Positions 18,374 to 40,398 of a DNA stretch of 64,000 bases are shown one piece after another. The position numbers were made by a program, and so were the translations under genes. The stretch lies in NCBI GenBank assembly GCA_021498125.1, contig JAIZWL010000001.1, positions 837,434-901,433 of the forward strand, written 5' to 3'. This DNA comes from Candidatus Thorarchaeota archaeon. GTDB lineage: Archaea; Asgardarchaeota; Thorarchaeia; Thorarchaeales; Thorarchaeaceae. Each line of letters begins with the position of its first letter. Position 1 is the stretch's first letter. The notes beneath the pieces were generated by a model. The model was given only the letters and a program-made list of their open reading frames with translations. It made no database searches and was not told the DNA's origin.

Positions 18374-18551
18374 GGCTCTGTGTGAAAAGTCGGTGAGGTA
18401 ATACAAAGGATTGTGACGGGTCCGACCACATCAGTGAGTTCACGCGGGTTCCGCGAACAACGTCGCGAGGTCCTGCTAAAGGTGCTCCTGCACAACATCG
18501 AGCGGCTCAACTTCCTAGAGTGTGACGGGAGGTGACTTTTCACACAGAACC
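18374..18551. mobile_element. Left terminal element (E1), 178 bp, with transposase remnant
   Basis: The terminal inverted repeats GGCTCTGTGTGAAAAGTC and GGTTCTGTGTGAAAAGTC (read inward from 18374 and 18551) match at 17 of 18 positions. On the plus strand the interior is open and ends with LLKVLLHNIERLNFLE and a TGA just before the right repeat. This looks like the C-terminal tail of a DDE transposase, so E1 is probably an internal-deletion derivative of the autonomous insertion sequence. A T-run follows the right end. Confidence 0.75.
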
Positions 18552-18764
18552 GGTTTTTTTAGACTATGTGCGTTTAATTAGAATGGATTCTATAAGTCGT
18601 AGATAAGGCCTGCAATAGACTTGCAGTTTGAACGTCATTGACTAATTCCATAAAATACATCATTAATAGAATTCATCAAGCTGCAATTATCATACACATA
18701 TCTGTTCTTTAGTAGTCTTGCGAAGGTGCAATATTCCACAATTACTCAACTCACAATCAAACAG
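18552..18764. other. Gene-free AT-rich stretch between E1 and the solo cmr1
   Basis: About 210 bp. The only structure seen is a small hairpin, CTGCAA/TTGCAG around 18610-18627. It is the 3' side of the minus-strand cmr1-like gene. No repeat units of a CRISPR array are present. Confidence 0.4.
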
Positions 18765-19955
18765 CTATACTCTGATCTCTTCTCCATCTAATGTTCCAAG
18801 GAAGTCTTCCAAATAATCAAAGGTTGGTACCCCAGTAAAAATTGATTGTTCAGGATCGTACAGATTAGAAATTTTCAGCTCGCCTTCAGAAATGAATTCG
18901 GACTTGAACAGCTGCACACCTACCACATATTTTTTCTGTTCTAATTTCCATATCTTCACAAGTAGGGGTGAGGCTCTTCTTTGAGTATTCTTGCCCTGTA
19001 CTATGGCCTTTTTACCAATGGATTGGAATTGAAACTGGTGTGGTAAACCGAAAATTGACCCTTTAGGTGTTTTATGTGTATGTGATGCTGATTTACCTGA
19101 TGTCTGAAATACGGCTCTAACTGCTGTATAATCCTTTGTAGTCCGATAGCTGTATTCTTTACCTTTTCTAGTTCTACGCGTATGTAATGTTTTCGGATCC
19201 TCTCTAAAAGATCGAATACGAGAACCAATAAAATCAATTGCATCAAAAGCGCTCTCAAAAACCTGATCTATAATCTTTAATTTCCAGTAGTTGGGAGAAA
19301 TTATTGGAAATGCAGGAAGTGTTTGGTGGGTAGTTTGTTCATTTATTTCAAAGATCTTGAAGCATTCTCGAATATTGGTTTCTAAATATTCGACCAAGCT
19401 TTCACAATCGTTCGGATTTTCAAATTCGAGTTCTGAGTTAAGATTCTCTGTTTCTGAAACCATGAAGCTACCAAAACCCTTTCTGCTTTTAGCTCCAACA
19501 TTTCCCAAATTAAAAAGTAACCATATTGTAGATTCGATTTTATTTTTTTCTTCGGCCGATAATGAATGCGGGTATAACAATTCCAATTCGAAATTGCTAT
19601 CAATATCAATGTACGGTCGATTCTCTATTCCATATGTGAGATATTTAATACCTTTATTACGCCTTGTTTTCTCCTTTATATTCCTCTTTTTTTTAATCTT
19701 GGGTGATTTGACTCGAATTATAATCTTACTTTTTGCTCGGGTGGATCCCCATATACGATTTTCTTCTTTCGTTACGTTCTCAAACTCTTGAGAACTAGAC
19801 GAATAAATTGCCCCTCCTTTTATTGCTCTGAACCACCATCTCATTAGTCCTTTCAAACTAGTTGGTCTTAATGGATTATCCTCGATGATTCGTTGATCCG
19901 CACCTGCAATAAATGTAGGTGTAACTGATGTGAGTTTGAAAATTGCCCTATCCAC
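18765..19955 (-). CDS. Solo Cmr1-like RAMP protein
   Basis: 396 residues. The opening FKLTSVTPTFIAGADQ, then LRPTSLKGLMRWWFRAIKG, and later NVGAKSRKGFGSFM are the hallmark Cmr1 segments, matching those of the operon Cmr1 at 26.7 kb (PSSIKGLLRFWFRAF; GARSRRGFGSF). Sequence elsewhere is quite different and the central Lys-rich insert (SPKIKKKRNIKEK) is unique to this copy. It stands alone on the minus strand with no cas10 or other RAMP beside it, between two copies of the short element. It could be an alternative subunit for the Cmr complex or part of another RNA-guided assembly. Start GTG 19955. Confidence 0.85.
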   Translation of the reverse strand: MDRAIFKLTSVTPTFIAGADQRIIEDNPLRPTSLKGLMRWWFRAIKGGAIYSSSSQEFENVTKEENRIWGSTRAKSKIIIRVKSPKIKKKRNIKEKTRRNKGIKYLTYGIENRPYIDIDSNFELELLYPHSLSAEEKNKIESTIWLLFNLGNVGAKSRKGFGSFMVSETENLNSELEFENPNDCESLVEYLETNIRECFKIFEINEQTTHQTLPAFPIISPNYWKLKIIDQVFESAFDAIDFIGSRIRSFREDPKTLHTRRTRKGKEYSYRTTKDYTAVRAVFQTSGKSASHTHKTPKGSIFGLPHQFQFQSIGKKAIVQGKNTQRRASPLLVKIWKLEQKKYVVGVQLFKSEFISEGELKISNLYDPEQSIFTGVPTFDYLEDFLGTLDGEEIRV

Positions 19956-20124
19956 GATTAATTCCCCTTTGCGGAGTTATATTGATGTTGTAGAATTGTC
20001 TACATATATCTTTCTGGATTATCTTCGTTGATGTCATTTCATGAACGGCGAATTTTATTAATTAAGTACTGCTTTCTTAATCCACTTATTTATGTATAAT
20101 AAATGGCTTGTCAATAGTTTTGCA

Positions 20125-20271
20125 TAAATTTCAGGCTCTGTGTGAAAAGTCGGTAACATAGTGAGTGTGAACCAAATGAACACTATTTTCTGTTCGGATC
20201 CAAAACTCTTCGGGATTCATTCTGACTTGTATGATCTATGTCTGGACTTTTCACACAGCTCCTAAATTTCA
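20125..20271. repeat. 9-bp target-site duplication pair around E2
   Basis: TAAATTTCA occurs at 20125-20133 and 20263-20271, directly abutting both ends of the 129-bp element. This is the cleanest evidence for the size of duplication produced by this element family. Confidence 0.85.
20134..20262. mobile_element. Miniature inverted-repeat element (E2), 129 bp
   Basis: Inverted repeats GGCTCTGTGTGAAAAGTC and, from the right, GGAGCTGTGTGAAAAGTC bound a 129-bp unit with no sizeable coding capacity. The interior shares TTCGGATCCAAAACTC with the corresponding TTCGGATTCAAGACTC of the element at 40267, in the same orientation. It was inserted into the island between the solo cmr1 and the DHH operon. 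The surrounding 459-bp gap (19956-20414) otherwise holds divergent AT-rich promoters. Confidence 0.85.
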
Positions 20272-20414: not shown

Positions 20415-21380
20415 GTGGGAGATGTGGCGGATATATTTAATGAATATTTATCGAAGGTTACGAATTATCGGATAGTGAGCGATGGGGATCTCGATGGGAT
20501 ATTTGCGACAGGATTTTTGCTACAGTATTTCGAACAGATTGGACAATCCGTACAATACGAATATCCTGCACCTAAACTAATCCGTGGGATGGAAGTTTCT
20601 AATTCGATTCTAATTGAGTTGCCTCTCACGAAGGGACTTGTCTATAGAGGGACAAATTTGTTGATTGATCATCACAATGAGGCTCCACATCTTCAGCTGT
20701 ACTCTGGAGCAACACTTGTTTCCTCGTGCTCGTTAGATTTCGACGTACGGGCAGTTACTGAGGTCATTACTTTTTTGATAAAAGATAGAGTGACTTTACC
20801 AAAAGAAGCAGAATCTGTGCTATCAGCTGTTTCTCGAATTGATCAGGGAATATATGAATCGGATCTCGATTTTGATCTACATCATGCTTACTTGCTAGAG
20901 ATTGAGAGTTCACAGATGCGTGCACGAGTTACGGAATGGGTACGTCGAAATCAGTGGTCGAAGATAATCGATTGGGCGAATGACGCACGGCACAAATGGC
21001 AGACAGTACAGCAGCATGTGAGCGAATTTGTGCGTGCAGCCTTACCCGTGATAGATAATGCGGTATATTTCACATATGGTGAAGGATCAATTGAACGATC
21101 GGCAATGCGTGATGCAATGTTGCAACTTGAAACGGAGCATCCGATTGTCGTTGCAGTACAGATGGGAGAAGATGGATCTGTTTCTCGGATCAGTATTGGG
21201 ACAACTCGTGAAGATATTGATCTAACTCCCATGTTTGATTATTTGCGTTCCATCCCCGGTGTTACGGCAGGTGGTCGCAAGAGTATAGGCGGTGCTCAAT
21301 TTCCCGAAAATTTACCTCTGTCTACTGTTATTGAATATCTATCAGAGGCATTGAATCAACTTGTTATGGAGGATTCATGA
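20415..21380 (+). CDS. DHH-family phosphoesterase
   Basis: 321 residues. VSDGDLDGIFATGFLLQYF provides the first aspartate motif and LLIDHHNEAP the DHH motif; near the C-terminus GVTAGGRKSIGGAQFP resembles the GG motif of DHHA1 substrate-binding domains. DHH-DHHA1 enzymes cleave cyclic dinucleotides, short oligonucleotides or single-stranded nucleic acids, and one from Sulfolobus is reported to degrade cyclic oligoadenylate. Leading an operon in a type III CRISPR island, this protein may switch off cOA signalling; this is inference. GTG 20415 is used, and GTG 20424 is possible. Confidence 0.8.
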   Translation: MGDVADIFNEYLSKVTNYRIVSDGDLDGIFATGFLLQYFEQIGQSVQYEYPAPKLIRGMEVSNSILIELPLTKGLVYRGTNLLIDHHNEAPHLQLYSGATLVSSCSLDFDVRAVTEVITFLIKDRVTLPKEAESVLSAVSRIDQGIYESDLDFDLHHAYLLEIESSQMRARVTEWVRRNQWSKIIDWANDARHKWQTVQQHVSEFVRAALPVIDNAVYFTYGEGSIERSAMRDAMLQLETEHPIVVAVQMGEDGSVSRISIGTTREDIDLTPMFDYLRSIPGVTAGGRKSIGGAQFPENLPLSTVIEYLSEALNQLVMEDS

Positions 21381-21381
21381 G

Positions 21382-22398
21382 ATGTCCGATAATCTAAATG
21401 AACAGAGCTTCGAGCTTGGCGATTTGTACATCAATACGCGATTGCCTAATCTAATTGAGATTGACAATATTGAGTTGTTTCATGGTGTTGATTTATCCGA
21501 ACTTCATATTACTTTTACAGAAAAAAAGAAGGACAAATCCGATTTGTTCAAAGATCGACTCAAACTATTTGGATTAGCTTCACGTTACATGGTGCGTCCT
21601 TTTGGTGTTCGTTTTGAAAGCGTTTCAGAATCGTCCAGTGATGATGTTGTACTCCGAGGAGTCCTTCCTGAAATTGAACTGTTTCTAAATCAGTTGATCG
21701 CATGTGCTGGTTATGAAGAGATTAAGAGATTATCAGAAGAGGTATTTTCTTCTCTGGAACTAGTAGATGATAAATCATGGGCTGTGTTAGGTCCCCTCCT
21801 GAATGCTAGTGTTATTACAATGCGCAATAAAGCTCGGTGGTTAGCGAAAAAGCCCACGATTCCTGTTCCAAAGGTAAAACTTCCAAAGGATACTAACGAG
21901 TTTTTCAGATTAATTGGGCTTTATCAACCATCACCCGTTTCGTATGAATGTGTCTTTGTTGCTGTGGGCTTCATGGATTCTCTTCAAATGGGATCTGCTG
22001 TCGATACAATCATTTATAGTATAGAAAAGAATCTGTTTGAAATTTCGGATAGGCTCTACTTGATTCATTCAGAATATAGCAAGTCGAACGCAGAGAAGAT
22101 GTGTGACCTTTTTCGGGCAAAGAAGCTTATTCGTGAACGGAAGTTGGAAGTATCTACACTCCTGCAATCAGAGCTTGAATCTATCCAAAAAGTTCAACTT
22201 CCAACGGCATTGGTTATTACCCCGTATCCAAAGGATCTGCTCAAGGGATTATTATTATTTTTTTGCAAAGTTGGGATACCTTCACCTGATATTTACTCCA
22301 TTGGAGCTTATTCACATCCATCTGATAGTAAGGTATTGCGTGTAGTATCACTTCTCGAGTGGGTAGGTTCTGTAGATGATTATGTGGGGGCTGAGTGA
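21382..22398 (+). CDS. Unknown protein, possible divergent CARF-like fold
   Basis: 338 residues from ATG 21382, 1 nt after the DHH stop. The first half is charged and without known motif. From about residue 190 the pattern CVFVAVGFMDSLQMGSAVDT, then DRLYLIHSEYS, and ALVITPYPKDLLKGLLLFF alternates strands and helices in the order of CARF sensor domains, although the usual (T/N)-G-G-T-K is not conserved. It could be a divergent ligand sensor; no catalytic motif is visible. Genomic position between the phosphoesterase and another unknown gene suggests a shared role. Confidence 0.6.
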   Translation: MSDNLNEQSFELGDLYINTRLPNLIEIDNIELFHGVDLSELHITFTEKKKDKSDLFKDRLKLFGLASRYMVRPFGVRFESVSESSSDDVVLRGVLPEIELFLNQLIACAGYEEIKRLSEEVFSSLELVDDKSWAVLGPLLNASVITMRNKARWLAKKPTIPVPKVKLPKDTNEFFRLIGLYQPSPVSYECVFVAVGFMDSLQMGSAVDTIIYSIEKNLFEISDRLYLIHSEYSKSNAEKMCDLFRAKKLIRERKLEVSTLLQSELESIQKVQLPTALVITPYPKDLLKGLLLFFCKVGIPSPDIYSIGAYSHPSDSKVLRVVSLLEWVGSVDDYVGAE

Positions 22399-22403
22399 TT
22401 ATT

Positions 22404-23540
22404 ATGAAATTGACAAGTATTACCTACAAACTTGTACCACAGAAAAAACACCGTAAATTGTTTCAGCGACTTCTCAGTGCGTTAACGTTGCAAGGTTCTA
22501 ATCGGTTCAAAACAATAGGTGGAGTCAATAGCATATTTTTTACAGGATCATTCGATGGTCTAATAGTCAGAAAAAATATGCTACTGGATTCTCCTGCAAT
22601 TAACAAAGAATTAGGACATGAATTGGCGTTATTACGTAAGGTATTTGATAATCCGTTGCTACCTTTTGATTCAGCAATATCACTCATTTCGAGAAGTGAT
22701 GCGCCATCATCACTCACATACATTTGTGAATCAATCGTTCCTGATCCTCCATCCGATGTTGCAGTTACTGTGACACATCCTCTTGCTATTTTGCCAGCTT
22801 TGTTGAAGAGTAATAGGATTGGTCTAAGTCTTGGAATTGCATGCTGCCAGAGTATAGTCGCACTTGAGAGGATGAAACCCGGTCAGGTTGAGGCTGTTGA
22901 TCTGGCTGTAGCCGTTGCGAGTGTTCTCATCGACATGGCACGATCTGCTACTACAAGCCCTACACAACGATACTTGACATCTGCAAGATGGACCGACCTG
23001 ATTTCTGATAGATCGCCTAGTGAAATTATGGCTATCGCAAATGAAATCTCTCTTTGGAAGGAAAAGTCGATTGATTCATTTCTTCTCCGTCTGAAGACTG
23101 AATATGAGCAAGTGAATTCAGTTATCTTCGGAAGAATTAGATCATGTTTGATGGAATCTGATCGTAATGATGGTGGTTTCCATTTTCAGAGTGTAGTAGC
23201 TGCTCTATCAGAACAGATGAATCTATTCGATTTCTATCATGTCATAGATAAGCGGATTCCTCTCAAGATTCTGTATACTCCCTTGACCCTCTATACTCGC
23301 CTGCTTCTTGAAACTTTGATAGACGTTTTATGCAACAAACACAACAATGTAGAATTTCAATTTCATGTTGGTCTATTGCCTGTAATGGCTAATGTTCTTC
23401 TGGACAAGGTAATAGATAGCAGTAAAAAACCAGTTCTTTATATTTCAGGAGGTGGACAGCTGAACTATCTGATATCATTTAGTTTAGAGAAAAAATATCG
23501 TGACGATATTATAGTTAGAACTCGTCCCTGTCCGTCTTAG
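22404..23540 (+). CDS. Unknown protein, third gene of the DHH operon
   Basis: 378 residues from ATG 22404, six bases after the previous stop; the open frame overlaps it. No family was recognised. Notable parts: LLSALTLQGSNRFKTIGG near the N-terminus, a helical middle, and near the C-terminus VGLLPVMANVLLDKVIDSS followed by the Gly-rich strand PVLYISGGGQLNYLIS. The YISGGGQ turn could be a nucleotide- or phosphate-binding loop. Not membrane-associated. Followed by about 90 bp with a T-rich run shared with a convergent gene. Confidence 0.55.
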   Translation: MKLTSITYKLVPQKKHRKLFQRLLSALTLQGSNRFKTIGGVNSIFFTGSFDGLIVRKNMLLDSPAINKELGHELALLRKVFDNPLLPFDSAISLISRSDAPSSLTYICESIVPDPPSDVAVTVTHPLAILPALLKSNRIGLSLGIACCQSIVALERMKPGQVEAVDLAVAVASVLIDMARSATTSPTQRYLTSARWTDLISDRSPSEIMAIANEISLWKEKSIDSFLLRLKTEYEQVNSVIFGRIRSCLMESDRNDGGFHFQSVVAALSEQMNLFDFYHVIDKRIPLKILYTPLTLYTRLLLETLIDVLCNKHNNVEFQFHVGLLPVMANVLLDKVIDSSKKPVLYISGGGQLNYLISFSLEKKYRDDIIVRTRPCPS

Positions 23541-23631: not shown

Positions 23632-25281
23632 TTATCCTGTTCGGGATTTAGGCCCTTGTTCCATTGACTGGATCCATCTAGAGGTATCATTTTTTGTCTT
23701 CATCCACTTACCAGTCTCTAGATTCCAGTCATCCAACCAATTTGTGAGATTCCATGATCCCCACAATCGGTTACCCACAAGTATTGGTTTTGGACGTGGT
23801 TGCAGTCCACTAAGGGCCCTAATCAGACCGTACGTGCCCCCGGGAGGAACCTGCACACGCATAAGCAAATTCTCCTTCTGATCGTATTCAATGTTGCATC
23901 TCGGCAGTCGGAGTCCAAGAGCTGATACACAATGTACAATTTCTGGATTTTCGCTCGTGATAATGACCTCTTCAACGAGACCTATATGTTGGACATCCCA
24001 GAACTTTCGAATCACATCTAACGCTCTTAGTTTCCTTACATGCTGGATGATTGTTTCATTTCTCGATTCCAGTTGTTCTCTAAGTTCCCGGATGGTTTTG
24101 TATCCTCTCTGAAACAGGTCAAGAATTTTGAGGTCGAGTGAATCCAGTTCTAAATCTTCTGATGGTGATGAGTAGTGTATTTGTGGATATACAATTGCTA
24201 GGTCATCGCGCTGCATCATTTCAGATTCCATTTGAAGCACTCCCCAGTTGATATCCCATCGGCCTGCTTCATGGTTGTAATCATCAAAGTTCAATAGAGT
24301 AGCAGCCTTAAATCTCTCAAATATCTGGACATCTAAATTGTAAGTTCTCGCTTTATTCTTTAGAACTCCAAGATATCGGATATTTTCATAGTTGTTTGGA
24401 ATACATAATGTGGCTAGAATTCCTCCGTTTCCCGTCAGTATTGGTGCCGTTGAATATACAAAAGGACACCATCTAAGTAAAAACGAAACATCGATTTGGG
24501 AGTCTTTAGGTGGTTCGATGATAATATTGTACAACCGAATTCCGATTTTAGAGAGCACCACATATTCAAACTCAGTGAGGATATCACGCTTTTTGAGAGA
24601 TTTGATAATCTTTCTTGTCCATTGAGGAGAGTGTCTTAATCGATCAGAAATCACTTCGATAGTTTCATTAGAAGACTTCATCAGTGCATCAATCACAAAA
24701 CATTCCATCATCTTGAGGTGAGCTGAAGTATTCATAATATATCTATAGAGAAACAATGCCCAATCGTCAAAATCCGGAATAATTCTATATTTTGCCATTT
24801 TTTTAACTGAGGCGAGTAAATCCGCAAACCCTTTGGAGCCACGTAATTTTTCAAGGACTTGTAGCGATTCTTGAGGCTTGTAGGGATATCCCTTTGAGGT
24901 CTTGCGTGGTGGATTGACTTCTTTCCATTTATCAATCCAGATCTGTTCATGCTGCGAATCAATATGTTGGCGGCCATATTCCCAAGCAATATCGTCGGCT
25001 GCAATTGTATCGATGAAATCGGTGGGGATTGCATTGTACATCACTTCTCTGGCGATGACGGCTTTAAGGATTCCATATTGATCATGTGCTTTTCTGTTAA
25101 TCGCTATACTTTCTTCAACGATTGAGGTAGCAATCAGTGAGTCGATATCGCAATCATCATTGTCGATAATTTGGATTGATAATTCGTTGGTTGATACGTG
25201 CAGGTCAAACTTGTGTTTAATTTCTCCTGATAGTTCAGTCCACAACTGTTGAACGATCTCATCGATTGTGCCTATTTTCAA
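23632..25281 (-). CDS. Large winged-helix regulator-like protein
   Basis: 549 residues. Two helix-turn-helix regions are seen: about 205-235 (ETIEVISDRLRHSPQWTRKI) and about 380-425 (LDSLDLKILDLFQRGYKTIR, then HVRKLRALDVI), the second like AsnC/Lrp-type winged helices. The N-terminal 110 residues (IVEESIAINRKAHDQYGILK) hold a conserved-looking mixed region of unknown role. It directly follows the CARF-HTH gene on the same strand (21-bp gap), so the two are probably co-transcribed and may jointly regulate the island. TTG 25281 is the start. Confidence 0.6.
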   Translation of the reverse strand: MKIGTIDEIVQQLWTELSGEIKHKFDLHVSTNELSIQIIDNDDCDIDSLIATSIVEESIAINRKAHDQYGILKAVIAREVMYNAIPTDFIDTIAADDIAWEYGRQHIDSQHEQIWIDKWKEVNPPRKTSKGYPYKPQESLQVLEKLRGSKGFADLLASVKKMAKYRIIPDFDDWALFLYRYIMNTSAHLKMMECFVIDALMKSSNETIEVISDRLRHSPQWTRKIIKSLKKRDILTEFEYVVLSKIGIRLYNIIIEPPKDSQIDVSFLLRWCPFVYSTAPILTGNGGILATLCIPNNYENIRYLGVLKNKARTYNLDVQIFERFKAATLLNFDDYNHEAGRWDINWGVLQMESEMMQRDDLAIVYPQIHYSSPSEDLELDSLDLKILDLFQRGYKTIRELREQLESRNETIIQHVRKLRALDVIRKFWDVQHIGLVEEVIITSENPEIVHCVSALGLRLPRCNIEYDQKENLLMRVQVPPGGTYGLIRALSGLQPRPKPILVGNRLWGSWNLTNWLDDWNLETGKWMKTKNDTSRWIQSMEQGPKSRTG

Positions 25282-25302: not shown

Positions 25303-25953
25303 TCAGGAGTCATTTTCTTTCCAGTGTTTGGACAGCCCAAGGACAACTCGGCCAAGCTTGGTGATACATATTCCCTTTTTTTCAGATCCAGTTCTTGGAT
25401 CTTTTGTGATATATCCCCAGTCACGAAGCATATTTACGTGTCGGCTTATTGATGAAGCTCCCAACTCCATGCGAGATCCAAGATCTTTCTGAGATTCCAC
25501 ACAACCGCCTGCTTCTATCAATTTTTCAAGAATTTTCCTTTTTGGGGTTTGGAGTTTTTCTCTTTTGATAGGTTCAATCTCTCGTACTCCCTTCTCCTCC
25601 CCTTGAATCTCAATAACCAGATACAGTTTTGCGTTGATATACGCCGCAGCCATGACCAATGCGGCTGTCATCACTCTTGTTCCTAATGAAGGGTTAAATC
25701 TAATCTCCCACCCTTGATGTTCAAGAACAATTTCTAATGCAGTAGCAAGCACATCATAGTAATCCCACGGATCAACTGGTCTTAGTTCGACTGTGAACGC
25801 CTTCTCAATTTCCTCTTTTACTGCTTCTGCATTATCTTTTGTGTCTTCACTATGTAGAAGGACAAGCTTGTTCCCCCCAAAATGCCGAATGACATAGTCC
25901 ACTCTCTGTGTTCGATGAAATCCCATGCTCGCTATATGAACGACTTTCCTCAA
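25303..25953 (-). CDS. csa3: CARF-HTH transcriptional regulator (Csa3-like)
   Basis: 216 residues. N-terminal CARF domain: strand VVHIASMGFHRTQRVDYV, then LVLLHSED, and the ligand loop EIRFNPSLGTRVMTAALVMA, with the small-residue signature that contacts cyclic oligoadenylate in this superfamily. C-terminal winged helix: VESQKDLGSRMELGASSISR with the wing LRDWGYITKDPR. Csa3-type proteins act on cas gene promoters in archaea and bind cOA. Divergent from the cmr operon with the structured region between them, a likely target. Start TTG 25953. Confidence 0.85.
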   Translation of the reverse strand: MRKVVHIASMGFHRTQRVDYVIRHFGGNKLVLLHSEDTKDNAEAVKEEIEKAFTVELRPVDPWDYYDVLATALEIVLEHQGWEIRFNPSLGTRVMTAALVMAAAYINAKLYLVIEIQGEEKGVREIEPIKREKLQTPKRKILEKLIEAGGCVESQKDLGSRMELGASSISRHVNMLRDWGYITKDPRTGSEKKGICITKLGRVVLGLSKHWKENDS

Positions 25954-26059
25954 TTGACCACTTCCAGTTCTAATTCGAAATTCGAATTCACCCTCAAACT
26001 GTCCTCGTAATTCTCGAACTTTCTACTCATTGTTTCGTTAGTCTTTGATGTTAATGACT

Positions 26060-26220
26060 TTTTGATAACAATGGCGTTCGAGACACACTATCAGTTCCCG
26101 GGCGAGCCACAGGATCCACCTTGGTAGGAATAATCTGTGGCACGCGATAGGGCTCTTTGAGCCCACCTAGTTTCCCCTGCGGGCCCACGGTCTATTAGAC
26201 CGCGGGGCCCCTTTTTTTTG
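26060..26220 (+). ncRNA. Candidate structured RNA ending in an intrinsic-type terminator
   Basis: Three hairpins follow one another: GCCACAG (26106-26112) with CTGTGGC (26135-26141); GGGCTC (26150-26155) with GAGCCC (26159-26164) around a TTT loop; and GGGCCC (26181-26186) plus CGGTC (26188-26192) with GACCG (26198-26202) plus GGGCCC (26205-26210). The last is followed by eight Ts (26212-26219). There is no ORF. The 5' end is not known, and no known RNA family was recognised. Confidence 0.55.
26181..26219 (+). terminator. GC-rich terminator hairpin
   Basis: An 11-bp GC-rich stem with loop TATTA runs straight into a T8 tract. The T-run is on one side only, so it works for plus-strand transcripts entering from the regulator side. 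Confidence 0.65.
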
Positions 26221-26441
26221 TTTCTGGTTTAAGTCTTGTATTTTCTAAAGTTTGGTCACAATTGGAAAATCCGTGCGAATCCGGATTATTTACTAACCAA
26301 TATCGGGTGTTTATTTAATTAATTGGAGTCGGATTTTATCTCGGGAACCATTTAGTGTCGAAAAATATTGATGTTATTTCTGTTTGTTTCCCGTAAAGCC
26401 GAAAAACGGCGGTTATTAAATAATATTCTCAAAGACCCTCT

Positions 26442-26470: not shown

Positions 26471-26485
26471 GGGTTATATCGATGG

Positions 26486-26502
26486 TGTTGTATTATATAG
26501 TA
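26486..26502 (+). promoter_or_regulatory. TATA box of the cmr operon
   Basis: GTTGTATTATATAG contains a good TATA box. Transcription would start near 26520-26530 and leave a leader of about 160 nt before cmr1. Confidence 0.5.
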
Positions 26503-32182: not shown

Positions 32183-33004
32183 ATGAAACATTTCGCAATT
32201 TACGAGTCAAAAAAAGTTTCAGAATTAATAGAATCCCCCGGAGGAAAAATAATAAATAATGCGGGTCTTTTCTTTGAAAGATATCCCTTGCTCTGGACAT
32301 ATAACGATTCTATTAGTGATTCTGATAAACCAGAAAAGACACATGATTCACTATCTAATAAATTCTTTAAACAGGTTATGTGGGCATTACGACATGCTGA
32401 GATTCATGACCAGTTGCGTATTTACCATAACCGGATTTCGACCATGGTACATACAATAGGTGGTCACTCGTTTGAACTGACGACAAGAAGCCGATTTGTT
32501 ACAGGTCTGGGTGCAACACATCCTTCAGAAACAGGTTTTAGGTGGGATCATAATCTTGGAATCCCTGTTATCCCTTCATCATCGATTAAGGGAGTGTTAC
32601 GGACTTGGTACAGGGACTATTCTCACGATTCAGATATTCTCGAGTGGCTTGGACCTGAACATAGTCCTGGAAACGATTCATCATCTGCGGGAAGTCTCAT
32701 AATATTTGATGCAATTCCTCGAATCGAAAAGAAACGGTCAATCTTGAATTTGGATATTATGAATCCACATTATAGTAAGTATTACTCAAATCCTGAGAAG
32801 AATCCACCTGCTGACTATTATTCACCAGTACCCATTTTCTTCTTGACTGTTGCTCCTAATACAAGGTTTTCGTTTCATATAGCGCCTCGTCCGAATTGCG
32901 CTGTCGATTTAGGCAAGGTCGAGTCTACAATTCACGAAGCATTAGAGACAATCGGTATTGGTGCAAAGACATCTGTTGGATATGGTCAGTTTATATCCCG
33001 GTAA
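32183..33004 (+). CDS. cmr6: Type III-B effector subunit Cmr6
   Basis: 273 residues. RAMP protein near the guide 3' end. FVTGLGATHPSETGFRWDHN and IPVIPSSSIKGVLRTWY are the Cmr6 signatures, and IGIGAKTSVGYGQF is the final glycine-rich loop. ATG 32183 is preferred over GTG 32174, as AAGGAGTGA (32169-32177) stands about 5 nt before it. The last gene of the core Cmr set; the helicase gene follows after 13 bp with its own AAGGAG. Confidence 0.92.
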   Translation: MKHFAIYESKKVSELIESPGGKIINNAGLFFERYPLLWTYNDSISDSDKPEKTHDSLSNKFFKQVMWALRHAEIHDQLRIYHNRISTMVHTIGGHSFELTTRSRFVTGLGATHPSETGFRWDHNLGIPVIPSSSIKGVLRTWYRDYSHDSDILEWLGPEHSPGNDSSSAGSLIIFDAIPRIEKKRSILNLDIMNPHYSKYYSNPEKNPPADYYSPVPIFFLTVAPNTRFSFHIAPRPNCAVDLGKVESTIHEALETIGIGAKTSVGYGQFISR

Positions 33005-33017
33005 GGAGTTATCGACT

Positions 33018-35891
33018 ATGGTAGGAGTAAAACGTATACGTCGTCGTGATTCGGATTCAGCAAAGCCCGAAAGGAATCACAGTTATGAAATAGACCCTTC
33101 CCAACTTGAAGCCTCTATTTTGGCCTATAGAAACCTACCAGAAGTCGATAGTGATCAAGCCTGTTACCACTTGATGAAACGAGTATCAGTAGGTCTCGCG
33201 GATATCTCCCGATACCTTGAACACTCGATTAAAAGTTATGAGTATTCAAGCCTATTCATTCTTGTTCAACAATTGAATACTAGAGTTGGAGATCATATTC
33301 TAAAGAACTATCCCAATGCCCGCTGGTGTAAAATTATCAAAACCGTTCCAAAAGGAAAAAAGAAGGCTCAATCTGTTCTACGTAGAGGTAAAACTTTACT
33401 CAGTCCTACTGAAGTGCCTGACGTTGAACCGTATATGGAAAAATTACCTTCGTCTGCACCTGATGAAGTAATTAATATTGTCCGAAATCAGGGCAATGAT
33501 GAAAATGGATTTTTGGGATACCCTGTTGAAGTTTTAGATCTCCGATTCAATGCCCTTCTTTTATCTTCTGCACCTAATACTCGAAGACGTAATGAAAAAT
33601 TCTGGGTCTGCTATATTCCTTCAGCATATTCATTGCGTAGATATCGTGATGCGGTCAATAATTTAATACACTCGCCAACAAACAATTTACGTCCACTTCT
33701 TAACTTATTTGAACGACGTGCATATGCTCAGTGGCCAGACTTCAAGCTAGTCAGAATCAACGATTGGCTATTTCTCACAGATCCAGATATTGGATCTGAA
33801 AATCCTTTTGAAGACTACGAAGACGATTGGGATTATCTGGACGATGGCTATCATGATGAACGGAGTTCTACGAGTGAGGCTCGAAATCCGTCAACATCTG
33901 ATCAACGGAGATTTGTTCGGCTTGCACTGAGTACGCCAGATTTTGGATTGCTATGGGGTCCACCAGGTTCAGGTAAGACCTACACCATCATGGAGCTAAT
34001 TTTTCAGGCTGTAAAACGTGGTTGGCGTGTTTTGTTCTGCGCCTCTACTCATGTTGCTATTGATCAAGCGCTTGAACGCTTACTTGCTAACAAAGATGCA
34101 ATGAAATATATTGTACCTCTACGGATTGGAGATTCTGAAAAAATCAGTGATTCCATTAGAGAATATAAACTTGCACGAATTAGTTCCAAGTATCGCCAAG
34201 AAATAATGGATGATCTCCGCAAACAGCCCTCATTAACAGTTTCTCAGGAGAGATGGTTAAGTGCTCTCGGTTCCAAAGATGGAAATTATTGGATGGAACG
34301 TACTCTACTAGATTCTGCTAATCTCATTTGTGGGACAACCGTTGGGATTCTTCAGCATCCCGAAATTCGTAGAGGCGATTGGTTTGCACACAAACCAATG
34401 TTTGATTTACTGATAATTGATGAAGCTAGCAAGACCACATTTCATGAATTCCTCATTCCTGCTCACTTTGCTAAACGTTGGATTCTTTGTGGGGATCCTC
34501 GTCAGCTTTCTCCGTTTGTAGACGATAATAGCATCCAAATGTCAATTAAATCTCTGATTAGAGACGATTGGAAGCGTGAATGCTGTTATGACGTTTTCAA
34601 GGCGATCACTTATGAGAAAACGCAAATAGTTGTAATTAGTGATGATGAAGAGGTAAAGGCGGGGTATCTGACTCAGGTCGAGGCAAAAAATGATTCAGCC
34701 GAAAACCAAATAATATCTATTATTAACATTACTGAGGAACCAAAAAATAATGATGAATGGTTAAAGATTCTTGGTTCTCAGATTATTATTTGCAGCATAG
34801 ATTTAGCACCAATTCTTGGTCGATATCTTCCAGGATCTGTAGATATCATTCGTGGAAACCCCAAACTTTTGGGATCGAAATTCATGGCTAGATATGAATA
34901 CATGCAGCAAAGCGGAATGTCAAGGGAAATTGATGATACGTGGGACACTCTATTATCACGATATATGGGTTTTGAATTCTACACAAGAAACACTAAGGAC
35001 GGATCTTTTGAGAACTATAGAGCAAAGAAAGAATTGCTATTGCCCGAATTTGATGGCAATTCGGATGAAGATTTAGATGATGACGACATCAGTAAAAAAA
35101 CACGTCAACAGTTTGAGCGCAAGTTGGATCGAATTAGAATATGTGCGTATCCTAGTGTATTGGAACTACTGATTGAAGGATTTCGTCCTGAAAGTGAGTA
35201 TGATAGCACATTGAATAAGGGATTTCCTAACGATGTTAAAAAAAGGAGATTAATAAAATTAAAGTACCAGTTTCGTATGCATCCTGAAATATCAGCATTT
35301 CCCCGTAAACAAATATATGATTCGAGTCAACTTCGTGATTCACCGGATATTTCTCAGAGGCGAAAGTGGAGCTATCCCGGCTACAGTTCAAGGGCACAAT
35401 GGGTTGAAGTCAATGGGATTTGGAGTGACGACGTTAACAATGAAGAGATCTCGCAATTATTATCTGAACTTTCCAAGTTTGTAAGATGGACCTCAGACAA
35501 TCCGCGTGATGATGGGCGAAAGTGGGAGGTGGCGATTCTATCATTTTATTCTAATCAGGTACATGCAATACTCGAGCGTATTATTAATGATTCAAAACTG
35601 AATCAAGAGGGTGCCACTGCTTTTTCAACAAAAAATGTTCATGTATTAGTGGGGACTGTGGATAGCATTCAAGGTAGAGAGGCAGATATTGTGTTCATTA
35701 GTTTTGTGCGTAACGGAACACGTGGTGTTGGATTTATTGAGAATCCCAACAGATTGAATGTTGCATTGACGAGAGCGAGATATCAACTCGTACTGATTGG
35801 GAATCGGACTTACTTTTCGAAACAAAAGCGATCTGCACTACTGAGAGAATTATCTAAACTGGAATCCGATTTGACTTATGGGGCTGATTAG
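33018..35891 (+). CDS. SF1 (UPF1/DNA2-like) helicase
   Basis: 957 residues. The first 290 are an unknown, charged N-terminal region. Then come helicase motifs: Walker A GPPGSGKT (314-321), motif Ia FCASTHVAIDQALERLL, Walker B LLIIDEASK (Asp468-Glu469), motif III CGDPRQLSP, motif IV-like KYQFRMHPEIS, motif V VDSIQGREADIVFISFVR, and motif VI NRLNVALTRARYQLVLIG. This is the UPF1/DNA2 branch, acting on RNA or DNA. An acidic, variable insert separates motifs III and IV. ATG 33018 is supported by AAGGAG (33003-33008). Co-directional with cmr6, so it is likely on the Cmr transcript. Confidence 0.9.
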   Translation: MVGVKRIRRRDSDSAKPERNHSYEIDPSQLEASILAYRNLPEVDSDQACYHLMKRVSVGLADISRYLEHSIKSYEYSSLFILVQQLNTRVGDHILKNYPNARWCKIIKTVPKGKKKAQSVLRRGKTLLSPTEVPDVEPYMEKLPSSAPDEVINIVRNQGNDENGFLGYPVEVLDLRFNALLLSSAPNTRRRNEKFWVCYIPSAYSLRRYRDAVNNLIHSPTNNLRPLLNLFERRAYAQWPDFKLVRINDWLFLTDPDIGSENPFEDYEDDWDYLDDGYHDERSSTSEARNPSTSDQRRFVRLALSTPDFGLLWGPPGSGKTYTIMELIFQAVKRGWRVLFCASTHVAIDQALERLLANKDAMKYIVPLRIGDSEKISDSIREYKLARISSKYRQEIMDDLRKQPSLTVSQERWLSALGSKDGNYWMERTLLDSANLICGTTVGILQHPEIRRGDWFAHKPMFDLLIIDEASKTTFHEFLIPAHFAKRWILCGDPRQLSPFVDDNSIQMSIKSLIRDDWKRECCYDVFKAITYEKTQIVVISDDEEVKAGYLTQVEAKNDSAENQIISIINITEEPKNNDEWLKILGSQIIICSIDLAPILGRYLPGSVDIIRGNPKLLGSKFMARYEYMQQSGMSREIDDTWDTLLSRYMGFEFYTRNTKDGSFENYRAKKELLLPEFDGNSDEDLDDDDISKKTRQQFERKLDRIRICAYPSVLELLIEGFRPESEYDSTLNKGFPNDVKKRRLIKLKYQFRMHPEISAFPRKQIYDSSQLRDSPDISQRRKWSYPGYSSRAQWVEVNGIWSDDVNNEEISQLLSELSKFVRWTSDNPRDDGRKWEVAILSFYSNQVHAILERIINDSKLNQEGATAFSTKNVHVLVGTVDSIQGREADIVFISFVRNGTRGVGFIENPNRLNVALTRARYQLVLIGNRTYFSKQKRSALLRELSKLESDLTYGAD

Positions 35892-36984
35892 AACGATGGC
35901 GAGTAAATCAATACAATTCAAGAGAAAAATCACTATAGAAAAATGGAGCGTCAATTTAACACTCAAAGAGTATGTTGATAATCCGATCTGGTTAGCAATT
36001 CTCGAATTAGCATATGAACATAAGCGGCATGTTACTCCGGCTATTTTGCATACCCAACTGTTGAAACGAAAGCTTCCCATAAAATCTGCTAAGCTGCTTA
36101 TTGAACGTCTTGTCGAATTAGGGCTCTTGGACAACAAATATAAATTAACGGAAGAAGGACTCGAAACGTACGAGTCCAAGAGAATCCCGGATCCGCAAAC
36201 AGGAACATATACTATCAAATTTGCAAGAGATTCCCTTCTCCCTCAAATTATTGTGGACTGCGAAGGACCATTCCCACCACGCTTTGACAAACGACGGATT
36301 AATAAAACACAAATTACTACGGATGAAATAGATACGTTGTTGTTTGATACCATCGGGAAGACAATAATTGTGGGTGCGTCCTCAAAGCCTATCCAAATTA
36401 TGGAGGTTAAAGAAAGAGGAACTAAACTCGATACTGAATATGCAACCCTTCAGCTGATGTATTATCCGGACAAGTCGCCAGAATTATTGTTAATTCAATC
36501 TGATTCAAAAGGTATCAACATGCCAATACCCAAGAAACTGGCCTCGCTAAAATTTAAAGAAATTTGTAATATAGTTTATTCACAAATCAATGGCTGGGAT
36601 AGAAAGACCGAAAAAGTGTTAGTACCATTCAAAGGCCTCGAACCATCAGAACGACGAACGTTTAGAAAGAGATTCACTATCAAAAGGCCTACTATACCAG
36701 ACTATGGGACATTTAATAGCGTTTTAACTCCGCCTCTAAATATCGAGCCTCAATCATCAGCGGATGCCCAAGAATGGATTGATTGGTATATTGAAGATCA
36801 GTTGCCACCAACATATCTTCGTAGTCAAACCTATGCGAAGTTCATTACAAAAGTAAAACACACTTTTCCGACACGTTATGATGTTACAATACCAGATCGT
36901 CATACTCTGGCGAGAAAATTGATGAAAACTAACCGCACTAAAGGATGGTTGCTTCAAGCACCCATTGATCTATTGTTGAGGTGA
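35878..36984 (+). CDS. Unknown protein with N-terminal winged-helix-like domain
   Basis: 368 residues, overlapping the end of the helicase gene by 14 bp; ATG 35896 is an alternative start. Residues about 30-100 (NPIWLAILELAYEHKRHVTP to ERLVELGLLDNKYKLTEEG) look like a winged helix. A middle region (IIVDCEGPFPPRFDKRRINK; LFDTIGKTIIVGASSKPI) has no recognised motif. Its position between a helicase and a nuclease suggests an adaptor or target-recognition role; not established. Confidence 0.6.
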   Translation: MGLIRTMASKSIQFKRKITIEKWSVNLTLKEYVDNPIWLAILELAYEHKRHVTPAILHTQLLKRKLPIKSAKLLIERLVELGLLDNKYKLTEEGLETYESKRIPDPQTGTYTIKFARDSLLPQIIVDCEGPFPPRFDKRRINKTQITTDEIDTLLFDTIGKTIIVGASSKPIQIMEVKERGTKLDTEYATLQLMYYPDKSPELLLIQSDSKGINMPIPKKLASLKFKEICNIVYSQINGWDRKTEKVLVPFKGLEPSERRTFRKRFTIKRPTIPDYGTFNSVLTPPLNIEPQSSADAQEWIDWYIEDQLPPTYLRSQTYAKFITKVKHTFPTRYDVTIPDRHTLARKLMKTNRTKGWLLQAPIDLLLR

Positions 36985-36989: not shown

Positions 36990-38489
36990 ATGACTCTGCC
37001 ATTTGAAAAGAAATTTACATACCATGTTGACAATAGTGACAAGACTGTAACCTCAGCATGGTTCGGACGTGAAGTAAAGTCTTGGGAAATTGATTTGCAG
37101 TCACGGGTACTTATGGGTGGGAAGAGCGGTGGATCTCTAAAACGAAAAGTTTTGGAAATTATAACCAAGTCTAAAGAAGTCATTGCACTCTGCTCATTTA
37201 TTCTGGGTGACAAGGAAATCATTGATGCATTAATGGATGCTGCTGGTCGAGATGTACGTGTATATATTTTGACTGCATCAGAGCAAAGACTACGACAATC
37301 CATGTCTAACGATCCTGATGACTTACAGGAACGAATGAGAAAAGAGCACGAATCTATGTTGGATTTGCTTGCTGGAACCGTCTTGCTTAGAGATGCAGAA
37401 ACACATGCCAAATTCATTATTTCTGATTCAAAGACCGACAATCGTATGGGTGTTCTTTCTACAGCCAATTTTACAACTGAGGCCTTTGAACATCCCGAGT
37501 TAGGAGTGGTTCTAAACAATGCAGAAATATCCCATCTCTACAAGATTTTTGTTTCTGCTTGGTGGACTTTAGCAGAGCATGAACTACTTGGTAAAAAACG
37601 TTTGAATAACATCCGACCTATTGTGCCCCCTATTGATGATGATGTAGACAGATTGATTTCTCAAATTGGTTCCTTTAGGATAACATTTCCCCACCGCAAG
37701 ACTTCCCTGCGTGAAGAAATCATACGACTGATTCGAGAGAGTGCTACAACTATTTACATTTCAACCTACGGAATCTCAGACGATGACGATGAAGTATATA
37801 CACAGCTTGAAGATGCTCTAGCATCGGGTAAATCAGTAAATCTTCTTATCCGACCTAGGGCAAAAACGACTCCGATTGTAGAACGGCTCGTACGTAAAGG
37901 CGCAGAAGTCAGAGGCCTAGACTGGTTGCATGCAAAAGTAGTTGTTTCGGATACGGTCAAAGGTGTGAATGCTCTGATAATGACCGCTAATCTTGAGAAA
38001 ATTAGTTTGCAGGATGGATATGAGGTGGGTTTCATCCTGCCGAAACGTCATGCAGTTACACTCTTGAAGATTATAAAACATTGGTGGGATAATGCGAATT
38101 GGGACTACGCTCTATCAAGAAGGTATCGTGACTGCGTAGGAAAGTATATGATTTTTCATAATGGCCAACCTGAACAACGTACAATCAAAAAGAAGCGTGT
38201 CGTAGATCTTGGTGAAATTGCCCTAGCTGACCTTGCGGATTATTATTCGTTCAGACCTAATTTTCCTGAAACAAATGATGCCATTGCGGTGACGTATCAA
38301 TGGAAGATTACTCCACCAATTCTACCCTCAATATGCAAGCCAATTACTGATTCTAAATATCCACATCTATCACTATGGGAGCGGAAAAAAGGGAAGTTGT
38401 ACATTGCCATTAAATCAGAGAAGGAACTCAAAGAGGTGTTGAGTGTTGATCGTCCTCCAAATGCTAAAATTGTACTTCATACCGAGTAA
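36990..38489 (+). CDS. Double-HKD phospholipase D-family protein (likely nuclease)
   Basis: 499 residues with two PLD-type motifs: HAKFIISD (His139) with STANFT, and HAKVVVSD (His314) with MTANLE. Both have H-x-K and the following Asn, so a complete bilobed active site can form. In defence islands such soluble PLD proteins act as nucleases (for example DrmC-type). The start is ATG 36990 with GAGGTGA just upstream. It is the last gene of the plus-strand cassette; a C-terminal region of about 120 residues is unassigned. Confidence 0.85.
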   Translation: MTLPFEKKFTYHVDNSDKTVTSAWFGREVKSWEIDLQSRVLMGGKSGGSLKRKVLEIITKSKEVIALCSFILGDKEIIDALMDAAGRDVRVYILTASEQRLRQSMSNDPDDLQERMRKEHESMLDLLAGTVLLRDAETHAKFIISDSKTDNRMGVLSTANFTTEAFEHPELGVVLNNAEISHLYKIFVSAWWTLAEHELLGKKRLNNIRPIVPPIDDDVDRLISQIGSFRITFPHRKTSLREEIIRLIRESATTIYISTYGISDDDDEVYTQLEDALASGKSVNLLIRPRAKTTPIVERLVRKGAEVRGLDWLHAKVVVSDTVKGVNALIMTANLEKISLQDGYEVGFILPKRHAVTLLKIIKHWWDNANWDYALSRRYRDCVGKYMIFHNGQPEQRTIKKKRVVDLGEIALADLADYYSFRPNFPETNDAIAVTYQWKITPPILPSICKPITDSKYPHLSLWERKKGKLYIAIKSEKELKEVLSVDRPPNAKIVLHTE

Positions 38490-38665: not shown

Positions 38666-39700
38666 CTAACGGTTGAGCACAATTGCCATCCGACTCAACC
38701 ATCCACTATCGTCCTTGTTTCTAGTTGATAGCCGAAGACTTTCAGTATCCCAGCTCTCACCTTTTTTCCCCTGCCAAATCCCTTCGATAACAATCCATTG
38801 AGATTTACTCCACCGTAGTCTGATGACTCCCATTTGAACTGCAAGAACATATAGTAAATCACAGAGGTCGTTCCAATGTGCACTGAATCTTTGATTAGTA
38901 AGTTGTTGCCGATCCAATCGAACCGCCATTATCTCTTGGTTAACACATTTGCTCACAAAGTCTGTGTCCTCACTAATTGCAAGAATATCGATTCTATTTT
39001 GTTGTGAATGGCGTGCAAGGGCATTGATAATTTTATCATCTGAAACGGCAGAGGTTATCCTTACACACCTTGGACTTGCTCTCATCTTTTTTGATTCAAC
39101 ATCCCCGAGTCGGAAAATTCTGTCCTTTGTCGCAAGCTGGTTCGTGAAATTTCTAAAATTATACCAATCTACTGAAAACAGTTTTTGCAAATCTACAATA
39201 TCCCTATTTCGATATTTTCTATCGTATTTTTTTATCTCATCTATTATCCCTGTTGTAATAATGTATCTGGCTCCACCAGTTCTAAGTAATTGTTTTTTAC
39301 TTTTTATAGATCGTTCGAGAATGCTATAGTATCGCCGATTCAATGCAACTGTGTCAAAGGCAATCCAACAAGGTTTTTCTCCACTATAGACATCTCTTGA
39401 AAGAGCCTCTTCTACCTTCTTTAGCAGTTTATCCCATCCTTGTGGATTGACTACTCCTGATGAAAACAAAGCCTCAGTAACCTTTGCATGTTTAAATTCG
39501 TATTTTTGAGCGTTTTTTGTAAAGTCCTCAGGTGATACTGTTTTTATTATTTCCGCAGTTGGTTTGTTGCGTGAAATCTTTATTTCAAAAAGTGGTGCAA
39601 TACTAAACGGAGTATCAATCTTGAATTCTATGACTTCATTAGATGCCATCCAATTCAATATAGCTATTAATTTTGGAGCCGCCAACTGTACATACTTCAT
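38666..39700 (-). CDS. PIN-like ribonuclease paired with a CARF protein
   Basis: 344 residues. The first third is a mixed domain without known motif. From about residue 107 a PIN-like core appears: an Asp in CWIAFDTVALNRRYYS, an acidic pair in ITTGIIDEIKKYDRKY, then SDDKIINALARHS and ILAISEDTDFVSKC supply the further acidic residues expected of a PIN active site. It starts in a 4-bp ATGA overlap with the CARF gene before it. By analogy with CARF-linked effectors it would be an RNase controlled by cyclic oligoadenylate; sensor and nuclease here are separate chains. Confidence 0.65.
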   Translation of the reverse strand: MKYVQLAAPKLIAILNWMASNEVIEFKIDTPFSIAPLFEIKISRNKPTAEIIKTVSPEDFTKNAQKYEFKHAKVTEALFSSGVVNPQGWDKLLKKVEEALSRDVYSGEKPCWIAFDTVALNRRYYSILERSIKSKKQLLRTGGARYIITTGIIDEIKKYDRKYRNRDIVDLQKLFSVDWYNFRNFTNQLATKDRIFRLGDVESKKMRASPRCVRITSAVSDDKIINALARHSQQNRIDILAISEDTDFVSKCVNQEIMAVRLDRQQLTNQRFSAHWNDLCDLLYVLAVQMGVIRLRWSKSQWIVIEGIWQGKKGESWDTESLRLSTRNKDDSGWLSRMAIVLNR

Positions 39701-40200
39701 GTTGTGACCCCCCTCTTAAAGTCAACAAGCTTCACGAATGCTTCGGGGATTAGAGGATAGTCTCGATTTGTATATGCATCGTCTAAAAGGTGAAGGTAAA
39801 ATATCGACTCGACGTTTTCGGAAATTCCGACTTTGAGACCTATTGCTGAAGCAAATTTACGTCCGGGAGTAATATCAATGACGCGCGGTTTGTTTGAATG
39901 TGCATGTACCTCTTTCTGAAACTTTTCTGCAAAACCGCTGTAATCTATTTCGTTGCACACTTCAACACTCAGACGGATTGACAAATCATATGCTTCATTG
40001 AATTTCTCTAGCCACTTCTCAAAATTGGAGAACGCCAAGTCAAGTTGATCGATGATTCTTTGCTTTCCGCTTTCCGGAATCAATCTAAATAAAATAATCT
40101 TGTTTGGTTGCCAGTTGTATTTAAGGTATGCCGCCCATATTGTATTAAGAACCGCATGTGGACTTAATCCAATTGTAGTAAACCAATACCCCTCTGTCAT
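39697..40200 (-). CDS. CARF-domain sensor protein
   Basis: 167 residues from ATG 40200, chosen as AAAGGAG is 8 nt upstream; the longer open frame runs into the right terminal element and so is not native. The fold fits a CARF domain: first strand and loop FTTIGLSPHAVLNTIWAAYL, then KIILFRLIPESGK, and the ligand loop VIDITPGRKFASAIGL, matching D-x-T-x-G-x-K-x-x-S of cOA sensors. There is no effector domain in the same chain; the PIN-like protein overlaps by 4 bp. The promoter may be affected by the adjacent terminal element. Confidence 0.75.
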   Translation of the reverse strand: MTEGYWFTTIGLSPHAVLNTIWAAYLKYNWQPNKIILFRLIPESGKQRIIDQLDLAFSNFEKWLEKFNEAYDLSIRLSVEVCNEIDYSGFAEKFQKEVHAHSNKPRVIDITPGRKFASAIGLKVGISENVESIFYLHLLDDAYTNRDYPLIPEAFVKLVDFKRGVTT

Positions 40201-40266
40201 AACCTTAACTCCTTTGTAATTAGCTATCTTTGAACCGTTATCCTTCAAAAAGATTTTGAGCTGTTT

Positions 40267-40398
40267 GGCCCTGTGTGAAAAGTCGATGAATGTGTATGAA
40301 TCCTCTCGACCTGTATCACATGGTGCATTCGGATTCAAGACTCCACATACATAGTTTGCATTGATCCGTTCATGACTACAGACTTTTCACACAGATTC
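40267..40398. mobile_element. Right terminal element (E3), 132 bp
   Basis: Inverted repeats GGCCCTGTGTGAAAAGTC (from 40267) and GAATCTGTGTGAAAAGTC (from 40398 on the other strand) bound a short non-coding unit. The interior shares TTCGGATTCAAGACTC with E2. Its own two flanks do not match each other; its outer flank GTAGGTCTC instead matches the outer flank of E1, making E3 the right end of the 22-kb element. Confidence 0.8.

Follow-up and report, generated by a model that had tools for sequence, protein, structure and literature searches.

By what route does a type III-B CRISPR-Cas (clustered regularly interspaced short palindromic repeats and associated proteins) effector module that lacks an array enter an archaeal genome? 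According to an earlier proposal, array-less type III-B effectors spread as a backup that draws on type I guides, and the accessible part of that work names no vehicle for them (PMC5576922). The question is raised by a 22-kb island in a genome of Candidatus Thorarchaeota, which carries a complete Cmr operon together with other putative defence genes. We analyzed the island within a stretch of 64,000 nucleotides (the window, G000:C1:837434-901433), where G000 denotes the source genome, C a contig, other G numbers the genomes of relatives, and L the loci fetched for comparison. The source genome comprises 3.11 Mb in 14 contigs, of which C1 spans 1.55 Mb; G003, G007, G019, G053, and G060 lie within its genus or family. 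Our results argue that the island is a non-autonomous composite transposon bounded by the remnant of an insertion sequence (IS) and by a miniature inverted-repeat transposable element (MITE).

Borders of the island

The island occupies positions 18374-40398 of the window (22,025 bp), and a perfect 9-bp duplication, GTAGGTCTC, abuts both of its outermost terminal repeats, at 18365-18373 on the left and at 40399-40407 on the right, where a first-pass annotation of the sequence had placed it. The same annotation had described the outermost 18 bases of each end as inverted repeats of one family; the family is indeed the same, and 16 of the 18 bases match. A pair of 18-nt arms lying a little further inward is 94% complementary at a spacing of 21,983 nt. 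The island has a GC content of 40.6%, whereas the 10 kb on either side have 48.6% and 47.4%, so that the AT-rich interior noted earlier is borne out.

Related mobile elements thus stand at both ends, and the duplication lies outside the whole unit only, as expected of a composite transposon. On their inner sides the end elements are flanked by GGTTTTTTT and GAGCTGTTT, which differ from one another and from the outer GTAGGTCTC, and neither end element has a duplication of its own, while a MITE in the interior of the island has one.

The 9-mer GTAGGTCTC occurs four times in the window against 0.38 expected, a number reached in none of 100 shuffles. Its two additional copies, at 33189-33197 and on the minus strand at 45986-45994, are distant from any terminal repeat; the weight of the duplication lies in the two copies that abut the outermost terminal repeats exactly. 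The flanks of end pairs, each consisting of a forward end and a downstream reverse end, were compared after ends with three mismatches or an incomplete 9-base flank had been dropped. Among 53 pairs that lie on the same contig less than 50 kb apart and do not form one element, two have 9/9 flanks, where 0.00027 would be expected from base composition, and one has 7/9. Control pairs with their ends on different contigs gave no 9/9 match among 1968, with two at 8/9 and seven at 7/9. The two near pairs at 9/9 are the 22-kb island and a segment at C2:162164-166936. These numbers bear on a reading in which two elements inserted independently beside resident or otherwise acquired genes and their 9-mers agree by chance. 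The two further copies of GTAGGTCTC in the window lend this reading something, but it has to set 0.00027 expected near pairs against two observed, and the intervening genes are missing from the homologous site in relatives; we consider it hardly credible.

End elements and their family

The left end (18374-18551, plus strand) is an IS5-family element shortened to 178 bp by an internal deletion; alignment with a 1012-bp copy at G000:C1:1490102 shows that about 60 bp from the left of the element and 117 bp from its right remain. Bases 62-178 share 92% identity with the right end of this copy, and bases 1-44 share 84% with its left end. The right end (40267-40398, plus strand) is a 132-bp MITE that shows 73% identity over 128 columns to a MITE at C2:114452 and can be aligned nearly end to end with other MITEs of the genome. 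Both island ends are whole elements, each with a pair of terminal repeats of one family, and the description of both ends as miniature elements applies to the right end only, the left being a deleted IS. What had been taken for a third copy of the repeat inside the island is a complete MITE (20134-20262) that, as read from the sequence, carries its own 9-bp duplication TAAATTTCA (20125-20271 with both copies) and is an independent insertion within the island.

The family is numerous in the source genome. The 14-base core of the terminal repeat, with at most one mismatch, was found 46 times in forward and 41 times in reverse orientation, and a reversed control pattern was not found at all. Forty-four complete elements, some of them perhaps fortuitous, were catalogued in the fetched stretches when up to three mismatches were allowed at each end, and a perfect 9-bp duplication of their own flanks 22 of the 38 elements with at most two mismatches. 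Exact cores are present in 15 of 47 genomes of the family.

The parent element is a 999-bp IS5-type sequence (copies of 998-999 bp) that is found at full length in Thorarchaeota relatives. Five of six full-length copies retain an uninterrupted frame of at least 305 codons, G023 being the exception, and four of the six have 9/9 duplications (G019, G007, G023, and G060); the flanks in G053 are mismatched, and the copy in G003 is cut by a contig end. The transposases of two relatives, when scanned, matched NF033579 (IS5 family) with 169 and 174 bits at a cut-off of 140, one of them also matching PF01609, which places the element at the level of the IS5 family. Fourteen relatives of the transposase were confirmed in genome_contigs, 13 from Candidatus Thorarchaeota and one labeled archaeon. 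Full-length copies of the IS sought for these ends exist in relatives; in the source genome, where an intact copy may be present, the 1012-bp copy is frameshifted and another is cut by a contig end.

Contigs C2, C4, C7, and C8 end close to elements of this family, which would suit an assembly artefact in which contigs were misjoined at repeated elements. A misjoin at MITEs would not produce matching outer 9-mers, however, and both end elements differ from one another and from the other copies compared, in a contig of 1.55 Mb. We regard a misassembly as very improbable.

Two pairs of elements elsewhere in the genome have flanks in opposite orientation. At C6:90311-93638 (L098), two MITEs (C6:90311 and C6:93508) have left flanks that are reverse complements, GATTTGATG and CATCAAATC; an inversion between the MITEs or replicative transposition might account for this pair, the right flanks fitting neither model fully. 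C1:990384 and C1:1333446, two elements separated by 343 kb, have left flanks that are perfect reverse complements, and the first of them also has its own duplication. The perfectly inverted flanks of both pairs point to rearrangements that occur as well.

The insertion site in relatives

The nearest informative relative for the island site is G002, in which the joined island flanks align through the junction over 1,443 columns with 72.6% identity and no island. The uninterrupted site proposed by the first-pass annotation is thus found, without the single copy of GTAGGTCTC that was to mark it, which is not conserved there. Of 19 relatives' loci, 8 (G002 counted) have a block of the right flank no more than about 450 bp from the inositol-phosphate synthase gene, and a ninth, L035, has it about 1 kb away; none of the nine has a 22-kb insert. 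The remaining 10 loci gave no such match of the right-flank block.

Alignment with relatives revealed a conserved, promoter-like block at 18322-18358 on the minus strand, next to the inositol-phosphate synthase gene (17204 to about 18283), which would be the promoter of this gene. The island starts 15 bp beyond the block, on its upstream side. Further out, at 40496-40669, a non-coding stretch upstream of the same gene is 85% identical in G002 and was partly found in other relatives. Rfam gave no match at 40400-40920 up to an E value of 5 and none at gathering scores in the whole window, and its three matches at 25900-26750 are all far under gathering scores. Folding of three stretches of the window, 40496-40669 included, yielded z-scores of -0.12, -1.79, and 0.09, none of which is significant.

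Deleting the island together with one repeat leaves a joined frame that is literally open, as claimed previously. We rejected a fusion of reading frames at the empty site: since stops occur in that stretch in 6 of the 19 relatives' loci and the DNA conserved there is the promoter-like block, the in-frame join is incidental.

Other composites

A search for further segments bounded by the same repeats, as the first-pass annotation had suggested, was successful within the source genome, and relatives are uninterrupted at the corresponding sites. The second composite, C2:162164-166936 (L095), measures 4,773 bp and has 9/9 flanks, TTGCATATC. Its site is continuous in G003 at 77% identity, with exactly one TTGCATATC, and in G001 and G002 at 70% and 69%. 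It contains ABC transporter and helix-turn-helix (HTH) genes, and the gene directly after it is one that, without a family search, we take to encode ribosomal protein S6e. A third, weaker composite, C1:1357263-1360351 (L096), measures 3,089 bp and has outer flanks of 7/9; G002 and G022 are continuous at its site, at 68% and 67%. Two open reading frames (ORFs) without family matches make up its cargo, and its start follows immediately upon the stop codon of a gene that, likewise without a family search, is presumably a fumarase gene. The interiors of both composites were unmatched in the 14 loci compared.

A candidate in another genus, G009:C37 (L149:4824-13038), spans 8,215 bp between a 738-bp IS remnant and a MITE, with 8/9 flanks. 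Its cargo includes a type II DNA methyltransferase (PADLOC 3.6e-126; PF01555), and the 238-amino-acid protein encoded beside it matched no family and none of the sequences of solved structures. In the four loci compared (eight were fetched), alignment succeeded for the right flank alone, so that its empty site is unconfirmed.

Homologous recombination would likewise yield matching outer flanks without matching inner ones, if a circle carrying the island and one element had recombined with a resident element already flanked by GTAGGTCTC. With 44 complete elements catalogued, partners for such an exchange are numerous, and inverted-flank pairs such as C6:90311/93508 suggest that rearrangements between elements take place. 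Neither end element is a hybrid, however: the left one is IS-derived in both of its parts and nearly all of the right one is MITE sequence, which would confine the crossover to the short terminal repeat. The mismatched inner flanks are also unlike the donor duplication that would be expected, and the outer-only duplication pattern recurs in the 4.8-kb composite at 9/9 and in the 3.1-kb composite at 7/9. Recombination is therefore an improbable origin of the island.

Since the outer duplications match and no inner ones do, a relative has the uninterrupted site, and there are sister composites with uninterrupted sites of their own, we read the island as a non-autonomous IS-remnant/MITE composite transposon with a type III-B effector module as its cargo, with a probability of roughly 0.85. 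An IS5-family transposase supplied in trans would bring together the left terminal repeat of the deleted IS and the right terminal repeat of the far MITE and would insert the entire 22-kb segment at a 9-bp target that lies closely upstream of the promoter of the inositol-phosphate synthase gene, presumably by either cut-and-paste or copying.

Cargo of the island

The type III-B gene set is complete, with Cas10/Cmr2 and Cmr1, 3, 4, 5, and 6 encoded in one operon on the plus strand, all as open frames and all matched by family profiles, as the earlier mention of a complete Cmr operon implied. Cmr1 (26688-27782) matched TIGR01894 at 3.5e-12 (46.8 bits, cut-off 28.65). It is followed by Cas10/Cmr2 (27779-29644; TIGR02577, 148 bits, cut-off 79.4), in which a motif scan located GGDD at residue 394 and no HD dipeptide, and by Cmr3 (29641-30837; PF09700, 1.2e-60), Cmr4 (30825-31739; TIGR02580, 213 bits, cut-off 87), Cmr5 (31743-32177; PF09701, 7e-29), and Cmr6 (32174-33004; TIGR01898, 157 bits, cut-off 51.1). 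A second Cmr1-like repeat-associated mysterious protein (RAMP) is encoded apart from the operon, at 18765-19955 on the minus strand (TIGR01894, 3.3e-25; PADLOC Cmr1, 4.6e-35). Cas10 relatives are patchy in the family, being found in 6 of 47 genomes, among them the source genome with a single match, and none was confirmed in genome_contigs or viral_contigs.

At the right end of the island lies a pair of ancillary effector genes on the minus strand. The PIN half (38666-39700) matched PADLOC CARF_PIN at 4e-26 over profile positions 172-455. The CARF half (PADLOC CARF, 1.8e-25) was listed as an ORF reaching to 40338, which enters the right-end element, and its start was re-read at the first ATG, giving 39697-40200. 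Two putative regulators precede the operon on the minus strand, a 549-amino-acid protein with a winged-helix stretch (23632-25281; PADLOC CasR, 3.9e-6) and a CARF-HTH protein resembling Csa3 (25303-25953; PF19810, 1.3e-12; PADLOC CARF, 1.5e-23). In other family genomes, the CARF/PIN pair lies beside cmr6 (L139) and both regulators lie beside cmr1 (L137), where the homologue of the 549-amino-acid protein adjoins cmr1 at 37.5% identity. Because they accompany cmr6 or cmr1 elsewhere, the pair and the two regulators seem to be part of the module. In the 734-bp intergenic region at 25954-26687, a run of T residues follows a hairpin near 26181-26219, with the z-score of -1.79 given above.

Judged by the knowledge of these families, Cmr4 would cleave target RNA, and the GGDD site of Cas10 would make cyclic oligoadenylate that activates the CARF/PIN effector.

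Downstream of cmr6, on the plus strand, a superfamily 1 helicase (32958-35891; PADLOC MkoA, 3.7e-82; PF13087, PF13086) probably starts later than the listed ORF, which overlaps Cmr6. The next genes encode a protein with a weak winged-helix match (35878-36984; PF24409, 2.8e-4, under the cut-off) and a PLD-family protein (36990-38489; PF13091, 7.3e-24). The set may be related to Mokosh, a system that pairs an MkoA helicase with an MkoB PLD protein: the helicase matches MkoA, and the PLD protein matches DrmC (PADLOC, 2.1e-27) better than MkoB (7.3e-11). Three overlapping genes on the plus strand at 20415-23540 may form an undescribed defence or repair operon. The first (20415-21380) encodes a weakly DHH/RecJ-like protein, with matches to TIGR00644 (8.2e-4) and PF01368 (0.0024) that are both under the curated cut-offs. 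The second (21361-22398), which overlaps the DHH-like gene, and the third of the apparent operon (22395-23540) encode proteins without family matches, whose structure models had predicted local distance difference test (pLDDT) scores of 33 and 36 and were not used; no relative of the third protein was confirmed in viral_contigs. The helicase, PLD, and DHH sets were unmatched in the six stretches compared from other family genomes.

Guides and the host type I-D system

A simple exact-repeat scan found no CRISPR array in the window, and neither cas1 nor cas6 was detected in the island; for type III-B systems, an array of their own and adaptation genes are optional. The single Cas1 match of the genome lies on C9, beside genes for Cas4, a Csa1-type Cas4, Csc1, Csc2, Cas3', Cas6, and a Csa3-like protein; the Cas6 match scored 53.5 bits, below the cut-off of 58.65. 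By these genes, we assign the C9 locus to type I-D. The genome contains 68 CRISPR repeats, on C9 and C6. The type I-D locus lies with an array at G000:C9:84290-101274 (L181, L182), and the same repeat recurs in arrays at the start of C9 and near the end of C6, two contigs that are perhaps neighbours.

The repeat is 37 nt long and reads, in one direction, GTCGCAGAAGAAGATCCCAGATTGAGGGGATTGAAAC. Its 3' end, ATTGAAAC, is one that we take to resemble the usual 5' handle of type III guides. The Cmr complex of the island most likely loads CRISPR RNAs (crRNAs) made by the Cas6 of the host type I-D system, a prediction from what is known of these protein families; guide sharing would give Cmr-bound guides with a 5' AUUGAAAC tag. 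When the 63 host spacers were compared with the window and the fetched loci, the best match had an E value of 0.016 over 15 bases and was taken as chance. Marinomonas has a type III-B complex that works with type I guides, and Sulfolobus islandicus REY15A has an array-less type III-B module, according to the accessible part of one study (PMC5576922).

The lack of a detected array, cas1, or cas6 in the island, where an immune role is a prediction, would also suit a module that has decayed or is non-immune and is merely carried by the transposon. All six Cmr genes are open and have family matches, however, Cas10 retains GGDD, and in other family genomes Cmr is found together with CARF/PIN and CARF-HTH partners, which makes a decayed passenger rather unlikely.

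Points that weigh against the composite

Several observations weigh against the reading of the island as a mobilized type III-B composite. An intact transposase was unseen in the source genome: the 1012-bp copy is frameshifted, and of the nine places that match a C-terminal piece of the transposase, one is truncated where its contig ends. The junctions are those of a draft assembly in 14 contigs. The relatives with an uninterrupted site have only about 73% DNA identity or less, the nine target bases are not conserved in them, and the right flank was unmatched in G001 and G003. Flanks of 7/9 or better occurred in 9 of the 1968 control pairs, from which about 0.24 would be expected among 53; the 3.1-kb composite rests on its uninterrupted sites, because a 7/9 match is by itself unremarkable. 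No composite of this type was found around the Cmr genes of G009, G014, and G015 in the stretches fetched, and G014 and G015 have no exact terminal-repeat core, so that Cmr does not depend on this vehicle. As for the guides, Cas10d was unrecognised among ten proteins of the type I-D region, and the use of type I-D crRNAs by Cmr is here predicted from sequence.

Comparison with known systems

Tn903, a composite transposon of the IS903 type, has full IS5-family IS ends that include the transposase, a 9-bp duplication, and inverted outer ends. The island shares the IS5-family ends, the 9-bp duplication, and the inverted outer ends, but its own ends cannot encode a transposase. CRISPR-associated transposons (CAST) and casposons also link cas genes with transposition; in contrast, no tested protein of the island matched such transposition genes, and the Cmr genes look like passengers.

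The closest parallels in arrangement are bacterial TIME-COMP elements and MITE-flanked integrons (PMC4133298, PMC13367494, PMC3934969). As described in the accessible parts of these reports, two short non-autonomous elements bound a passenger without a transposase, and the duplications lie outside the composite. These elements are Tn3-derived or 439 bp long, have 5-bp duplications where stated, occur in bacteria, and carry resistance, resolvase, or rep genes, whereas the island has IS5-family ends, of which one is a deleted IS, 9-bp duplications, an archaeal host, and a 22-kb CRISPR effector cargo. Since miniature-element composites have already been described in bacteria, the suggestion that the vehicle is uncommon and possibly undescribed narrows to the archaeal IS5-type ends and the cargo.

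The promiscuous type III-B modules of Marinomonas and S. islandicus resemble the island in an effector able to use type I crRNAs; the accessible part of the study names no carrier element for them (PMC5576922), whereas the carrier of the island can be read from its sequence and the resident system is of type I-D. Other mobile archaeal CRISPR-Cas systems differ in their setting, as far as the available parts of the reports go: those on integrated mobile genetic elements (iMGE) of Thaumarchaeota are type I-B systems or stand-alone arrays (PMC6563490), and the mobile Asgard loci of Heimdallarchaeum lie beside tRNA genes or arose by local operon swaps and are not target-duplicated composites (PMC8813620). 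A search of the open-access literature retrieved, in the text available, no type III-B module carried by a transposon with MITE or IS-remnant ends, and the accessible portions of a MITE review (PMC10969869) and of surveys of Asgard defence (PMC11291487) and archaeal defence (PMC12988326) contain none.

Biological meaning

The island is legible as a unit with defined ends and a target duplication, and a relative shows the uninterrupted site, all in an Asgard archaeal lineage. With two well-supported cases and one weaker case in a single genome and one candidate elsewhere, our findings suggest that MITE-bounded composites shape archaeal genomes. A broader and tentative idea, which we find possible but somewhat doubtful, is that capture of this sort recurs in Thorarchaeota: MITEs and IS5 remnants dispersed over the genome would mobilise the stretches between them, with defence modules favoured; array-less type III-B cartridges would plug into the type I-D crRNA pool, and DNA-methyltransferase genes, which resemble restriction-modification genes, would travel likewise in a second genus. 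The resident type I-D arrays offer a ready test of guide sharing, and composites of this kind would give immune modules a concrete route of spread.

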